Under the pieces are notes generated by a model. The model had not been told where the DNA came from. It saw only the letters and a program-made list of their open reading frames with translations, and searched no databases. A stretch of DNA of 64,000 nt from Ancylomarina subtilis (GTDB lineage: Bacteria; Bacteroidota; Bacteroidia; Bacteroidales; Marinifilaceae). Made by a program: the position numbers and the translations under genes. Shown here one piece after another: positions 52,177 through 56,990 of the stretch (position 1 is the first letter of the stretch; the number at the start of each line of letters is the position of its first letter). Where the stretch lies: contig NZ_SHKN01000002.1 in assembly GCF_004217115.1 (NCBI RefSeq), forward strand, positions 310,001 through 374,000. The letters run 5' to 3'.

Positions 52177-52705
52177 GAAAGCTATACGTAAGTGGTTAAG
52201 ACTGACTCATCGTTATCTGGGGTATTTCTTTGTGGGAATCACTCTTATTTATGCCATATCGGGCATTATCCTGAATCATAAAAAAAAGGGTGAAGATCCG
52301 GCTTATAAAACCGAATATATCAGTTATCAATTAAGCTCCGGTCTTAGTCCGAATCAAGTGACAGCGTATTGGAATGAGAATATATCGGATTATGCTTTAA
52401 ACAGAATTATACCCGAATCCGAATCATACAACCTCTACTTAAAGGGTGGTTTGGGAACCTACAACCCGATGACCGGGGAGTTAAATTTTGAGGTTTATCA
52501 GAAGAAACTATGGGTGTTTTTCATTAATAAGCTGCATTACAATAGTAAATTAGGATGGACACTAATGGCCGATATATTTGCCATTGCCATGCTCATATTT
52601 GCTCTTTCAGGCATGTTGATGGTGCCAGGTAAAAAAGGCATTCGTGGAATAGGGAAATGGCTTATTGCCATTGGTATTGTTTTGCCATTCCTGTTCTTCT
52701 TGTAA
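52160..52705 (+). CDS. PepSY-associated membrane protein
   Basis: A 181-residue protein. RKWLRLTHRYLGYFFVGITLIYAISGIILNH is typical of the first helix of PepSY-TM proteins. A periplasmic loop of about 85 residues follows, then LHYNSKLGWTLMADIFAIAMLIFALSGM and a last helix. Family members sit next to metal or haem uptake or reductase genes. Coupling to the upstream Cys/His-rich lipoprotein suggests a shared periplasmic job, possibly metal handling (inference). A strong terminator follows. Confidence 0.78.
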   Translation: MKLWSKKAIRKWLRLTHRYLGYFFVGITLIYAISGIILNHKKKGEDPAYKTEYISYQLSSGLSPNQVTAYWNENISDYALNRIIPESESYNLYLKGGLGTYNPMTGELNFEVYQKKLWVFFINKLHYNSKLGWTLMADIFAIAMLIFALSGMLMVPGKKGIRGIGKWLIAIGIVLPFLFFL

Positions 52706-53133
52706 TTAATGACAGACAATTTGAGAAAAGCTTATCAAAGGCAAATTGCTTTTGATGAGCTTTTTGTATTAAGATTAATAGGTGTTTGTTATTTTGATTG
52801 AATTTAAATTAGGTCTGTCCGATTTTATTGAATAGCTGATTATTTCTTTAATGTGTGAAATGTCTACACCCTGTTTTGTTCTTATTGCTTTGTGTTTGAT
52901 TGTTTTATGATGTGTTTTTAATTAACTTCAATATGCGTTTAAGATTACATAATACATTGGTTTGGTATTTCTCTTATGTCATTATTTTGTTTTAAAGCCT
53001 GGCATAACAGATGTCCACTCATAAGTAAACTTGTAATTCTTGAATCTGTTAGAAGGAACAAGAAGCTCATTGGTCTTATGTGTCTGATAAGTTTAATTGG
53101 GTTTCGATTTATTCATTAATCAAATTCATTAAA
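52706..53133 (+). other. Intergenic region before the unrecognised helical protein gene
   Basis: The first 60 bases hold a terminator. The rest is AT-rich, with no clear repeat or RNA element. An in-frame ATG at 53080 precedes the preferred start at 53134. Confidence 0.4.
52726..52765 (+). terminator. Intrinsic terminator, 14-bp stem
   Basis: AAAAGCTTATCAAA at 52726-52739 pairs with 52751-52764 (one G-T pair), and the T run overlaps the stem end. It closes the lipoprotein-PepSY operon. Confidence 0.82.
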
Positions 53134-53883
53134 ATGGTTACAGAAGAACAAATTACCACATGTAAAGCGCAGGTTGCTGCAATTCCTGATGAAAAAATTG
53201 TAGTGCCCAACATGCCATGCAATGTTTACCTTGCCGAAACTGAAACCCTTGAAACCTGGGCCATGCAGGATAAAGAAAAGCTGGCTACGGCTGGCGTTAG
53301 CGAAGAACGAATTGCTGAAATAGCTGTGCGGGCCACAGTCCTTCGGCAATACCAAGCCGATTGGATTATTGTGCGCCGAACCGGTAAAGACGCCGAAAAA
53401 GAGTGGAAGGCCTTTGCTACGGGCGCTTACGATTTATGTAGCGAAATGAAACATGCCTTTAAATATGCATTCAGAAATGAGCCCGAGCTTTTGAGACGTG
53501 TGGATGAGATTGCTGAAGGCACAGGTGATGCTGATATGATTCAGGATTTAAAAACCTATTCGAAATTAGGTCTAAAACATCAGGATTTGCTTACACCTAT
53601 TGGTTTTGATGTAGCCAAGTTGGATGCGGCAAGTACGATGTCGGATGAAGGGGCTAATTTGCTGGCTGAGGCCAATGGGAGCAAGTTAAAAGGCAATGTG
53701 CAGAAGGTTGCTCGCGACAAAGCTTATACTCACCTAAAAGAAGTGGTGGATGAAGTTCGCGCCTGTGGCAAATACCTTTTCTGGAAAGACAAAAAACGTT
53801 TGGTAGGCTACGAAAGTTCTCATTGGAAGAGCCAAAATGCCAGACGCAAAAAAGATGAAATAGAAGAAGTTATCGTTGATTAA
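53134..53883 (+). CDS. Unrecognised helical, charged cytoplasmic protein
   Basis: A 249-residue protein without signal or membrane segments. It is rich in Ala, Glu and Lys and probably all-helical, and ends in a basic tract (FWKDKKRLVGYESSHWKS, then NARRKKDEIEE). I do not recognise the family. The frame opens at 53080, but the ATG at 53134 (MVTEEQITTC) is more natural. Three sampled 60-base lines of this gene have 43-57% G+C, against 30% in one line of the next gene, so it may be acquired. A strong terminator follows, and 20 bases beyond that starts the RACATG array. Confidence 0.7.
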   Translation: MVTEEQITTCKAQVAAIPDEKIVVPNMPCNVYLAETETLETWAMQDKEKLATAGVSEERIAEIAVRATVLRQYQADWIIVRRTGKDAEKEWKAFATGAYDLCSEMKHAFKYAFRNEPELLRRVDEIAEGTGDADMIQDLKTYSKLGLKHQDLLTPIGFDVAKLDAASTMSDEGANLLAEANGSKLKGNVQKVARDKAYTHLKEVVDEVRACGKYLFWKDKKRLVGYESSHWKSQNARRKKDEIEEVIVD

Positions 53884-53902
53884 TATAAAGCTCAATTAAA
53901 AG

Positions 53903-53928
53903 AACTCTGCGTAAGCGGAGTTTTTTTT
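53903..53928 (+). terminator. Intrinsic terminator between the helical protein gene and the array
   Basis: AACTCTGC pairs with GCGGAGTT (one G-T pair) around GTAA, followed by eight Ts. It should stop transcription before the RACATG array. Confidence 0.85.
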
Positions 53929-53945
53929 ACGCCTAAAATTAAATG

Positions 53946-54183
53946 ATCATGTTCCCATATTGATGGTCATGTTCATTTTTTAGCCTCACATGTTACTATT
54001 TTTCTGGTCATGTCAATATTTTACTTTTCATGTTACTTATTTAATGCCCATGTTCAACATAACGACCGAAAACCCAACATGGCAGCTTATTTTACGACAT
54101 GAGTACATAAAATATGACATGGTAAGTCTGTTGTTAACATGACGGCCTTAAAGTTGACATGGGAGCTTTTGTTTTAACATGGG
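53946..54183. repeat. 20-bp-period RACATG array in two divergent halves
   Basis: Thirteen motif positions; twelve contain CATG. Left half, read as CATGTY on the plus strand: 53948, 53968, 53989, 54009, 54029, 54049. Right half, read as RACATG: 54058 (CATA variant), 54078, 54098, 54118, 54138, 54158, 54178. All steps within a half are exactly 20 bases except one of 21. The orientation flips at about 54055, where CATGTT and AACATA abut. The 14-base spacers between motifs show no shared sequence and no complementarity across halves. The period is not a multiple of three. It looks like an ordered set of protein-binding half-sites lying on one face of the DNA; the function is unknown. Confidence 0.9.
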
Positions 54184-54420
54184 GAGGAATAACTGAACTT
54201 TTGTACTAAGTGATATACAAGGATTCTATTTCTGAAATCAATTGTTGGCTGTGTTAAGTATTAGTTGTCTGGTAGTTATCAATTTTGTAACTTGTTGGGA
54301 CTTTGATTTATATTTCGATAATTAGGTTGTTTTTTCGAGAGATAAAAATGCTTGAACATTATTATATATCAGTTAAACTATCGCATGATAATAGATGTGA
54401 AACTTAATAAAACTGGAATC
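54184..54420 (+). other. Intergenic region between the array and the lipoprotein gene
   Basis: An AT-rich stretch presumably containing the promoter of the 54421 gene. At 54195-54198 GAAC without TG could be a decayed further array unit. Nothing else was recognised. Confidence 0.35.
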
Positions 54421-55071
54421 ATGAAGAAACTCTTACTCGTGTCGATTATTGTAATCTTTTACTGTTGTAGCAAAGAAGATAGTACTTCTAAGATGGAAAA
54501 TTTAGTCGTTTATTCTTACTATACTACAGCAATAGGTGAATATCCATATGATAATTTGTATCCTGCCTCAGATGGTCCGATAACATCAGCTGATTTTTAT
54601 TTTTTCAATGCAAAAGATATTGTTGTTCCTATACAAAAGGATATTATAACAATTGATAATCTTACTGATTATTCCGATTATAAATCAGAGGTGGTTGGTC
54701 TTTTAGAAACTCAAGGGAAGTTGAAGCTATCCAATGGTTCAGTTGTTAATTCTATACAGATCGATATTCGCAATTTAGATAATGGTACGTATAAAAGAGG
54801 TTATGCGAGTACAGTAGTAGATGCTCATAATGATGATGAATGGAATGATGTTCTGACTAAAAATGCGATATCCTTATCTATAGGAGAATATTTGGTGGTA
54901 GTTATACATGGTGGTCATCCCTATTATTGTAGTGAAGGCTATTCCTATAAAACAATCACTATTACCAAAGATATGCCAACTTCAGATAGGTATATAACTA
55001 TTGTTTTTCCATGGGACATGCATTATAAAGGGTATTTCGATTGGATCGATAATGATGGCTTTTATAATTAA
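54421..55071 (+). CDS. Uncharacterised lipoprotein
   Basis: A 216-residue protein with a lipoprotein signal (LLLVSIIVIFYCCSKE). The body is rich in Tyr, Asp and Ile and appears beta-rich; I recognise no domain. The reading frame is open upstream to 54352, but the ATG at 54421 fits the signal peptide. It lies just downstream of the RACATG array. Confidence 0.6.
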   Translation: MKKLLLVSIIVIFYCCSKEDSTSKMENLVVYSYYTTAIGEYPYDNLYPASDGPITSADFYFFNAKDIVVPIQKDIITIDNLTDYSDYKSEVVGLLETQGKLKLSNGSVVNSIQIDIRNLDNGTYKRGYASTVVDAHNDDEWNDVLTKNAISLSIGEYLVVVIHGGHPYYCSEGYSYKTITITKDMPTSDRYITIVFPWDMHYKGYFDWIDNDGFYN

Positions 55072-55135
55072 GAAATTCTATACTGTATTAATAGAGGAGT
55101 AATATAATTGATGTTTAATTAAAAGAATTGTAGAT

Positions 55136-55564
55136 ATGAACTCGAGTTGTCAAGATATGTGGGAAACTTATTCAATTGAAATTGAAAAGTTAGAAATCCT
55201 ACGAACTCAATGGTATAAACATATTACTCTTTTGGTTTCAAGTTTATTTGGAATACTAATCTCTTTAAGCCCTCTTGTTAATGAGGAGAGAAGTTCGGTT
55301 ATAATATTTGTTATAGCATTAACCCTTTTAGGATTAACAATACTTTGTTTTTTGTTGAAATTATTTGGACAGATATTGACAATAAAAAAAGCAATATTGC
55401 GATACCACGATGAAGCTTCTGAGGCAATTAAAAAAGGAAAACTTCTTCCTAATGTTTTGGTTGAAGAGAGCAAGCTTTTTATTCGTGTTGAATATTTTGG
55501 ATACCTGACATTTCTTGGTTCGATTTTTATGTTGATATTATTTTTGTGGCTTACCTATCTATAG
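55136..55564 (+). CDS. Small membrane protein, three predicted segments
   Basis: A 142-residue protein. A soluble N-terminal helix is followed by HITLLVSSLFGILISLSPL, VIIFVIALTLLGLTILCFLL and a C-terminal segment (YLTFLGSIFMLILFLWL). Between the second and third segments lies a charged helical loop. No family is recognised. Confidence 0.6.
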   Translation: MNSSCQDMWETYSIEIEKLEILRTQWYKHITLLVSSLFGILISLSPLVNEERSSVIIFVIALTLLGLTILCFLLKLFGQILTIKKAILRYHDEASEAIKKGKLLPNVLVEESKLFIRVEYFGYLTFLGSIFMLILFLWLTYL

Positions 55565-55681
55565 GGGATTATTGATTCTCTTTTATAATAAATGAACGAA
55601 TAATTATTTTTAGTATGATTTTTTACAAAATGTTGGATATAAATTAAGAATGGTAATTATAATCTTAAAAAGGATAATATT

Positions 55682-56368
55682 ATGATAACAATATTATTAA
55701 ATCTTCTTTTTGTGTTTTCATTATTTGTTAATGGTTATTCTCAAAAGTATAACCTACCAATAGACTCAAATGGAAATATTGTCTTCAAAGAGGTAATTAA
55801 TAGTAATCTGTCAAAAAGCAAGCTCTATTCAAACGCCCAGGAATGGATTGCAAAAACATTTGGGGATTATAAAAAAGTGATTCAATTCGAAGACGAAGTG
55901 AATGGAAAATTAATATTGAAAGGGGTAAATAATGTTAAGCATTTTGTTGAAGTGCATATAGCTGGAATTCATATAATAAATAGAGAAACAATTAAGTTTA
56001 CATTAACCATTGAGTGTAAAGAAAATAGATACAGATATATAATGGATAATATTGTTGTGTCCTTACATAATGATGGAGAGACTTGGGACAGTTCAATTTT
56101 TGAAAGAATAAATGATATTAAATCGTCAAAAAATAAGATTGAAAGACTTAATCAAGAATTGGAGGATTTAAAAAAGATAGACACATCGTCTTATAAAAGA
56201 AAGCAGTTGAAAAGGTACCACTGCGATGTGAGCAATATAGAGAAACAAATAAAATACGCAACTTCAGGGATAGAAAGCAATACTAAATTTATTGATTCTG
56301 AATTGGAGGCAATAAACACAATATTACCATCACTTAAAATTGCAATGTCAAAAAAAGATGATTTCTAA
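55682..56368 (+). CDS. DUF4468-like secreted protein
   Basis: A 228-residue protein with a signal peptide (LLNLLFVFSLFVNGYS). The region LPIDSNGNIVFKEVINSN through the DNIVVSLH strand resembles DUF4468, a TBP-like fold common in secreted Bacteroidota proteins. The C-terminal third (RINDIKSSKNKIERLNQELEDLKK) is a coiled coil, longer than in most members. Function unknown. Confidence 0.7.
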   Translation: MITILLNLLFVFSLFVNGYSQKYNLPIDSNGNIVFKEVINSNLSKSKLYSNAQEWIAKTFGDYKKVIQFEDEVNGKLILKGVNNVKHFVEVHIAGIHIINRETIKFTLTIECKENRYRYIMDNIVVSLHNDGETWDSSIFERINDIKSSKNKIERLNQELEDLKKIDTSSYKRKQLKRYHCDVSNIEKQIKYATSGIESNTKFIDSELEAINTILPSLKIAMSKKDDF

Positions 56369-56429
56369 TAAGGGAATATATTCATGCTTTGTAGGTGTCT
56401 GCAAACCAATAATCCTGGATAAATGAAAT

Positions 56430-56990
56430 ATGTCAGACAAATTTAAAGGACAATACAGAATAGAATCTGCTCGTTTGCAAAATTGGGATTATTCGAATGC
56501 CGGCATGTATTTTATAACTATCTGTACGGCGAATCGGGAGCCTTTTTTTGGAAATATCAGGAATGGGCTGATGCAATTGTCTGAAATAGGGAAATTGGCT
56601 GAAATATATTGGCATGAAATCCCATTGCATTTTCCATTTGCAGCCATCGATGAATTTGTTGTGATGCCCGACCATATTCATGGTATTATCATTATCAGTA
56701 AGCAGGATGATAATGGATTGTGTTCTGATAGAGACGCGATTAATCGCGTCTGTACGGATGTAGGAGGCGTTACAGGCATTAAAAATCCGATGTTATCGGA
56801 TAATTTATCGAGAATCGTCAGATGGTATAAAGGCCGAGTATCGTTTGAATCGAGAAAAATTCATGTCGATTTCATGTGGCAATCGCGATTTTATGATCAT
56901 ATCATTCGAAATGATGAAGCCCTGCAAAGAATCAGAAATTATATTCGAAATAATCCGTTAAAATGGTCGGGAAATCAGCAAGGCGATTAA
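56430..56990 (+). CDS. REP-associated tyrosine transposase (RAYT)
   Basis: A 186-residue Y1/HUH transposase domain protein. The N-terminal SARLQNWDYSNAGMYFITICTANRE is typical of Bacteroidota RAYTs. The HUH pair is His82/His84 in VMPDHIHGIII, and the nucleophile is probably Tyr171 in RNYIRNNPLKW. Such enzymes nick single-stranded REP palindromes. Unusually, a perfect 20-base palindrome of the REP type lies inside the gene (about residues 101-107), and a shorter version overlaps the stop codon. It appears intact. Confidence 0.88.
   Translation: MSDKFKGQYRIESARLQNWDYSNAGMYFITICTANREPFFGNIRNGLMQLSEIGKLAEIYWHEIPLHFPFAAIDEFVVMPDHIHGIIIISKQDDNGLCSDRDAINRVCTDVGGVTGIKNPMLSDNLSRIVRWYKGRVSFESRKIHVDFMWQSRFYDHIIRNDEALQRIRNYIRNNPLKWSGNQQGD
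56732..56751. repeat. REP-like palindrome inside the RAYT gene
   Basis: AGACGCGATTAATCGCGTCT is a perfect 20-base palindrome of the kind that RAYT enzymes recognise. Here it is translated as part of the protein. Confidence 0.7.

Follow-up and report, generated by a model that had tools for sequence, protein, structure and literature searches.

A phased array of short DNA motifs beside the gene of a helical protein in Ancylomarina subtilis, and its candidate role as the binding site of that protein

The array and its neighbouring gene

A stretch of 64,000 nucleotides from the genome of Ancylomarina subtilis (contig NZ_SHKN01000002.1, positions 310,001 to 374,000; hereafter the window) carries an array of six-base RACATG motifs at positions 53946-54183, downstream of a gene for an all-helical protein (Table 1). 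The array comprises twelve CATG and one CATA, and its orientation flips at 54055. In the left half the motif is read as CATGTY on the plus strand, starting at 53948, 53968, 53989, 54009, 54029 and 54049, with steps of 20, 21, 20, 20 and 20 base pairs (bp). The right half begins with AACATA (54056-54061), followed by RACATG at 54076, 54096, 54116, 54136, 54156 and 54176, all six steps being 20 bp. The centre, CATGTT-C-AACATA, is nearly palindromic. These positions confirm the motif count, the 20-bp steps with one of 21 and the central flip described by a first-pass annotation, made from the sequence alone; its right-half positions mark the start of CATG, two bases beyond the start of RACATG.

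The regular spacing that the first-pass annotation had singled out is not at chance level. Its signal lies in phasing, not in motif abundance: RACATG is not enriched across the window (62 sites, 78.7 expected from shuffles). The periodic-array score was 138; none of 60 mononucleotide shuffles exceeded 61.5, and none of 27 control windows of relatives away from arrays exceeded 64.4. Among sliding windows of the own genome (6,256 + 3,958 windows, about 2.06 of 4.0 Mb; median 38 in the 6,256) the array ranked third, and both windows that outscore it (157 and 153) hold further arrays of this kind. Nine of the ten exact RACATG pairs at 20-bp spacing in the whole genome fall inside it. A chance origin of the array is ruled out by the shuffles and the genome-wide scans.

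Table 1. Features of the locus and array loci elsewhere in the genome (positions without a prefix are those of the window; G000 is the genome of A. subtilis)
Feature	Position	Strand	Basis
Gene of a 249-amino-acid all-helical protein, putative binder of the array	53134..53883	+	multicopy family; AlphaFold2; no Pfam hit; weak NF052641 hit
Codons of the variable basic C-terminal tail (residues 227-249, ESSHWKSQNARRKKDE...)	53812..53880	+	tail varies with array motif; swaps at orthologous locus
Hairpin with U-run, probable transcription terminator between gene and array	53898..53927	+	RNA fold -15.8 kcal/mol, z -3.6
Left half-array, six RACATG on the minus strand	53948..54054	-	motif positions; A. 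salipaludis comparison
Array centre, near-palindrome CATGTTCAACATA (CATGTTCAACATG in A. salipaludis)	54049..54061	.	sequence comparison
Right half-array, AACATA, then six RACATG at exactly 20 bp	54056..54181	+	motif positions; A. salipaludis comparison
Variable cargo distal to the array, not at the same place in A. salipaludis; boundary, outside the module	54305-56549	.	genome comparison
Gene-less array sharing the motif of the PQLLE-type gene at C1:778957, some 1 Mb distant	G000:C1:1790067-1790346 (L271)		
Gene-less array carrying TGGCGGA, the motif of the C1:910005 gene	G000:C7:77182-77470 (L303)		
Gene-less array, motif matching the array beside a 308-amino-acid helical + CarboxypepD_reg-like protein	C1:463663-463974 (L309); gene-linked C1:1108985-1109332 (L321)		
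Nine-unit AGGGGAATG array between two convergent genes, no family gene	G000:C1:360953-361130 (L240)		

The AlphaFold2 model of the 249-amino-acid protein (52 sequences) is all-helical with a mean predicted local distance difference test score of 91.6, and contains a 56-residue helix as well as a separate last helix at residues 229-248. Pfam gave no match and no enzyme domain, and no significant sequence relative was found in PDB, nor a significant fold match in the PDB or viral fold libraries. NCBIfam NF052641 (PQLLE) matched with 29.3 bits (E 6.3e-7), below its curated cut-off of 80 bits. For 29 relatives, Pfam returned scattered weak hits only, and PADLOC and PHROGs each reported three families, with at most one member of 52 in each. 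The protein had no match in plasmid and phage collections, and a viral or plasmid origin was set aside for this lack of protein matches. The consensus terminator scan did not report the hairpin between gene and array, perhaps because its T run is paired in the stem.

No open reading frame of at least 60 amino acids covers the array, and Rfam has no match at 52600-55400. An RNA element was rejected for want of an Rfam match. A CRISPR or repeat-RNA array, which needs transcribed repeats of about 20 nt or more, was rejected as well, as only a six-base core is kept, no Rfam match was found and a terminator-like hairpin precedes the array. In Labilibaculum a hairpin follows the array instead, so transcription of the array is possible there. 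A promoter scan found five candidates, compared to 7.3 in shuffles. Iteron plasmid origins combine phasing of about 20 bp with an adjacent binder gene, and a replication origin of this kind with its initiator would account for the period and for the probable binder gene next to it. We regard this as very improbable: no Rep domain was found, a short core and not the whole repeat unit is conserved, several different copies lie on one chromosome, and no plasmid relative was found. The first-pass verdict that the array is neither iteron, nor CRISPR, nor coding stands.

Arrays beside the genes of a divergent family

Judged by sequence similarity, the window protein is a member of a multicopy, divergent family. 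Of 58 genomes of the neighbourhood, 13 contain relatives, as many as nine matches per genome and most at 30-38% identity; among 395 genomes drawn from the class one does (the own genome only), a patchy distribution. A DNA-pattern scan of species genomes recovered 64 loci from Labilibaculum, Marinifilum, Ancylomarina, Marinilabiliaceae, Prolixibacteraceae, Aquimarina, Marivirga, Flammeovirgaceae and some Myxococcota or Deltaproteobacteria.

The flanks of the family loci carry arrays with a 20/21-bp period and differing motifs. With arrays called at a periodic-array fit score of at least 75, and duplicates collapsed on the last 60 residues (with truncated copies kept), 65 of the 81 distinct members with a variable C-terminal tail (C-tail members) had an array of their own motif downstream, within about 430 bp, three had one upstream and 13 had none. 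For C-tail members of at least 200 amino acids the downstream count was 56 of 70, and upstream scores did not exceed 68.2 outside the three exceptions. Among the 13, the array of L012 lies a little further downstream, L072, L078 and L081 are borderline (scores 68-72), and L093, L095, L100 and L104, for which no array was called, also have an unusual C-terminus. This leaves L019, L092, L096, L102 and L106. The expectation from the first pass that homologues would adjoin such arrays was thus borne out for most of them, but that the motif itself would differ for most homologues had not been foreseen. Two Myxococcota homologues (L098, L099) have basic C-terminal tails yet upstream arrays, an exception to the side rule.

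Several copies of the family occur per genome, mostly with different motifs. Strict orthogonality of motifs within a genome was rejected, since two arrays of G016 are 0.85 similar and two of G032 0.74. The orientation flip of the window array is not general, and many family arrays are unidirectional. Consecutive core-motif distances (6-60 bp) number 601, of which 389 are 20 or 21; the 62 arrays concerned were chosen by a fit favouring 19-22.

Conservation of motif and period

Ancylomarina salipaludis (locus L071) keeps the gene, with 98% protein identity and 25 of 750 bases changed. It also keeps the array: all 13 CATG cores are present and every step is exactly 20, a deleted spacer base having turned the 21-bp step into one of 20. 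Between the two species 5 of 78 motif bases and 42 of 160 spacer bases (one deletion included) have changed (Fisher p 2e-4), evidence of selection on the motif as well as the period of the window array. Loss of the period at a retained locus, which the first pass had named as evidence against a functional array, was not what this relative showed. Another congener, G004, has neither gene nor array at the place.

One refinement concerns the spacers, described as unrelated in the first-pass annotation. Averaged over 59 family arrays, the A+T content is 0.41-0.60 up to three bases from the motif centre and rises to 0.77 one helical turn away, midway between motifs. Spacers may not be free in sequence. 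The A+T pattern may reflect bending of the DNA by a bound row of proteins, with a possible contribution from intergenic background or from longer motifs in part of the arrays.

Covariation of protein tail and DNA motif

An orthologous locus common to Labilibaculum (L043-L046) and Marinifilum (L054-L058) shows how gene and array vary together. Within a genus the upstream flank and the gene body align at about 84-94%, and between the genera at about 78% (flank) and 65-70% (gene), but the tail codons and the array mostly do not align. The alignment stops at the start of the tail codons in L054/L056 (at 5693) and L046/L055 (at 5692), while in L043/L046 and some other pairs the match extends a few dozen bases past it. 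The Labilibaculum bodies are 93-96% identical and go with the motifs CTACGG (L043 and L044), CAAC[TA]G (L045) and CGATAG (L046). The Marinifilum loci carry ATCAG (L054), CTACAG (L055 and L057), CGATAG (L056) and TAACTG (L058), so that five or six motif classes are found among nine loci. The tail YIRxKNxKN, in turn, goes with ATCAG in L048, L050, L054 and L060, whose bodies differ by up to 37%.

This association extends to the family. In partial Mantel tests (2,000 permutations, relatedness handled by thinning only), tail and motif were correlated given the body, with r 0.26 in 62 loci, 0.27 in 59 loci after removal of duplicates and 0.28 in 53 loci thinned for close kin (p 0.0005 each). Body and motif given the tail reached 0.08 in each of the three sets (p 0.02-0.06). 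Where the bodies of a pair differed by less than 50% (duplicates excluded), motif similarity was 0.75 with alike tails (45 pairs) and 0.53 with unlike ones (142 pairs). The tail is the best candidate for the motif reader, as far as covariation can tell, and we regard it as the putative DNA-recognition element of the window protein.

Exchange of tail and array at a fixed locus could also mean that the two travel in a mobile or gene-converting unit, for which the array would be a recombination or integration hotspot. Such a selfish module would explain the 5'-truncated copies that carry tail and array (L062, L068, L070 and L089), the Phage_int_SAM_4 integrase downstream of arrays, the insertions just distal to the array and the patchy distribution of the family. 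We nevertheless consider it improbable. The integrase cluster occurs at 8 of 84 loci, all from Labilibaculum or one Marinifilaceae metagenome-assembled genome, no common end sequence was seen by eye in five aligned loci, the protein has no recognised enzyme domain, and the window array, which belongs to a shared locus, is selected site by site.

L068 and L070, both from Labilibaculum manganireducens, are about 95% alike over 0.8 kb, covering the 3' end of the gene and a CAATAG array, and lie at different chromosomal places. The tyrosine recombinase with the Phage_int_SAM_4 domain (L046:6126-7202, L053:8716-9798) is encoded just past Labilibaculum arrays and also near truncated gene copies that retain tail and array; it is a possible machinery of cassette exchange. 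In the window, an IS200-like Y1_Tnp gene lies at 56430-56990, downstream of the array cargo, and only a partial open frame is present at the same place in A. salipaludis. RAYT/REP elements place palindromic REP units near an IS200-like transposase, but the window array consists of single half-sites, not of hairpins.

A mirror arrangement in PQLLE-type proteins

Profile comparison links the window family to the PQLLE proteins of NF052641, a name that carries no function (hhalign E 2.6e-5, probability 75, 172 columns). These remote homologues are accompanied by phased arrays too, but there the variable part is an N-terminal arm and the array lies upstream, in 36 of 40 members (NF052641 matches above and below the cut-off; one of these proteins also scores weakly downstream). 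Four proteins with RPKxSE arms all have arrays of the GCTT/GAAGC type, and over 32 loci the partial correlation of arm and motif is 0.17 (p 0.02). NF052641 matches were found in 22 of 56 genomes of the bacterial family and in 15 of 395 of the phylum. The phylum-wide loci have an upstream array in 19 of 27 cases, five of the 27 being also among the 40 and one, L206, being a probable false hit that resembles a flagellar protein. Six longer relatives (L200, L203, L204, L212, L215 and L221) have C-terminal modules that resemble FN3 by eye, which Pfam did not confirm in the four scanned.

The array therefore usually adjoins the variable end of the protein, with L069, L098 and L099 as exceptions. 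Joint exchange explains the side of the array more easily than promoter control does, and the idea of a promoter-determined side was dropped, since it is the variable end of the protein that the array follows.

Arrays elsewhere in the genome

The same genome holds further arrays. Two lie beside NF052641-type genes, at 778k and 911k, and others (628k, 1003k and 1109k, with a fourth, irregular one at 1045k) beside genes for 307-308-amino-acid proteins that combine a helical part with a CarboxypepD_reg-like domain. Three of the four genes of this 306-308-amino-acid type seen in the genome have clear upstream arrays, but homology of the type to the family is not supported (hhalign E 0.086 and 0.024).

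Five arrays have no such gene alongside, as judged by eye from the open reading frames: those at 361k, 463k, 423k of C2, 1790k and C7:77k. Motif models of gene-linked arrays pick three of them, from 778k to 1790k (6 sites), from 911k to C7:77k (6) and from 1109k to 463k (7), where chance would roughly account for 0.05 at most; the 423k array of C2 matches that of C7:77k. The 1790k array stands at the same place in A. salipaludis (score 127) and was not found in three other congeners. Here again motif bases have changed less than spacers (4 of 49 compared to 22 of 83, Fisher p 0.012). Three units matching the 361k array are found at the same place, a contig end, in G004, and none in G001 or G003.

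Four of the other windows of the genome scoring at least 75 were rejected, 823k, window 28801 and C2:28k as coding sequence and 1834k as a 42-bp simple repeat. Array scores of 78-98 were also recorded on C1 near 437600, 462600 and 1110400, the last of which looks like a tandem repeat of a longer unit.

The setting of the arrays bears on a role in local regulation, in which a bound array would silence, insulate or autoregulate neighbouring transcription. The arrays are intergenic, those of the N-arm clade occupy the upstream side of the gene, the expected place of a promoter, and two of the five gene-less arrays (423k of C2 and C7:77k) stand between divergent genes. Those at 361k and 1790k, on the other hand, stand between convergent genes and that at 463k between tandem genes, while the C-tail clade has its arrays downstream, on the side of the variable protein end and not of the promoter. 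Taken together, regulation of the neighbours is an unlikely explanation.

Comparison with known systems

Among known systems, the layout resembles ParR-parC (type II, ParMRC) partition loci, in which a DNA-binding adaptor is encoded beside an array of short direct repeats. The ParR/parC of C. perfringens fall into specificity classes that differ in repeat sequence and spacing, and 20-bp repeats are mentioned for the ParR of pSK41 (PMC9426499). Our array might likewise be a centromere for the segregation of a replicon or island, with the protein as a ParR/TubR-like adaptor and the diversity of motifs as incompatibility groups. An adaptor-like gene adjoining a short-repeat array, specificity classes of the kind known from C. 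perfringens and several copies per genome with mostly different motifs would all fit. Yet no motor nucleoside triphosphatase was found among the seven window neighbours scanned. In the flanks of 84 loci the recurrent families were neighbours of orthologous loci, integrase, IS200-like and thioredoxin-like genes, and no motor was recognised, most proteins being judged by their sequence start and six run against Pfam. There was no plasmid or phage hit, and Pfam, PDB-sequence and fold searches gave no significant match to a partition fold (ribbon-helix-helix, ParB or winged helix-turn-helix). The loci are also chromosomal, and, unlike in ParR-parC, about 8-16 sites keep only 5-6 bp and a terminal helix appears to be exchanged together with the array. 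We do not claim a partition family, since the searches for a motor gene and for a known adaptor fold yielded neither. The partition centromere proposed at first pass, for which no motor partner, plasmid relative or known partition fold was found, seems rather unlikely.

Two other systems share parts of the layout. In the meiotic pairing centres of C. elegans, paralogous zinc-finger binders (ZIM/HIM-8) each have their own short motif in chromosomal arrays. This is an analogy of layout only, as the system is eukaryotic, uses zinc fingers and lacks an adjacent gene and array. In the polymorphic toxin system CdiA-CT/immunity, a conserved body has a variable terminus whose coding sequence adjoins that of its cognate partner, and the two are exchanged jointly. 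In the present case that partner is a DNA array, and there is no sign of a toxin.

A candidate binding site and its possible use

We favour, with moderate confidence, the reading that the array is the cognate binding site of the adjacent protein, whose terminal helix would read the motif and build a phased nucleoprotein row. The pairing of gene and array, the covariation of tail and motif, and the selection on motif and period are backed by sequence evidence, and from these we infer the binding itself and the formation of a filament. The first-pass proposal, in which half-sites in helical phase serve a probable cooperative binder and are linked to the protein next to the array, is supported by the same evidence.

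Several observations weigh against this reading. In 37 thinned loci with tails of at least 12 amino acids, body and tail predict the motif equally (0.19 each, p 0.001), and seven members (L016, L026, L031, L034, L080, L086 and L088) end before the tail yet have arrays. For these two reasons the tail is perhaps not the sole reader. The Mantel tests, moreover, handle relatedness by thinning only. L117, from the own genome, has no array, L096 has a short basic end but no array, and L019, L102 and L106 are likewise without one. No partner array was found for the RACATG array, nor for those at 628k and 361k, in a looser scan that covered 2.07 of 4.0 Mb. Finally, the third pair of gene-linked and distant arrays (1109k/463k) belongs to a look-alike gene, the one for which the hhalign values above do not support family homology.

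If the protein does bind the array, the conserved helical body would serve as a scaffold and the variable basic C-terminal helix would read the 5-6-bp motif. One protomer would sit every two helical turns, all on one face of the DNA, so that roughly 8-16 protomers could line up into a short nucleoprotein filament. On the window array, two half-filaments would face away from the central dyad. Since the tail codons lie beside the array, one recombination event could swap specificity and target together, and the distantly homologous clade would follow the same scheme with an N-terminal arm and an upstream array.

As to the cellular use, marking, condensing or tethering of chromosomal loci seems the most likely, although we propose it only tentatively. 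It is favoured because several arrays of related or look-alike genes also sit far from the gene in the same genome. A more specific and slightly more speculative possibility is a chromosome-addressing system. Its scaffold proteins would read DNA with terminal helices that can be swapped, and each would polymerise on a phased array of its own, beside the gene and at one or more distant sites, forming a separate node or tether in a layout like that of pairing centres. Specificity and address would then co-evolve by cassette exchange.

We did not find an element of this kind described in the open-licence literature searched. If the proposed reading is true, these arrays would represent a so far unnamed bacterial way to mark defined chromosomal sites. 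The family would offer dozens of natural pairs of protein tail and DNA word, from which a compact DNA-recognition code might be derived, and separate pairs of array and binder could serve for the imaging or tethering of loci. It also opens a testable question, namely which role local, sequence-specific chromatin may have in Bacteroidota and in some Myxococcota.
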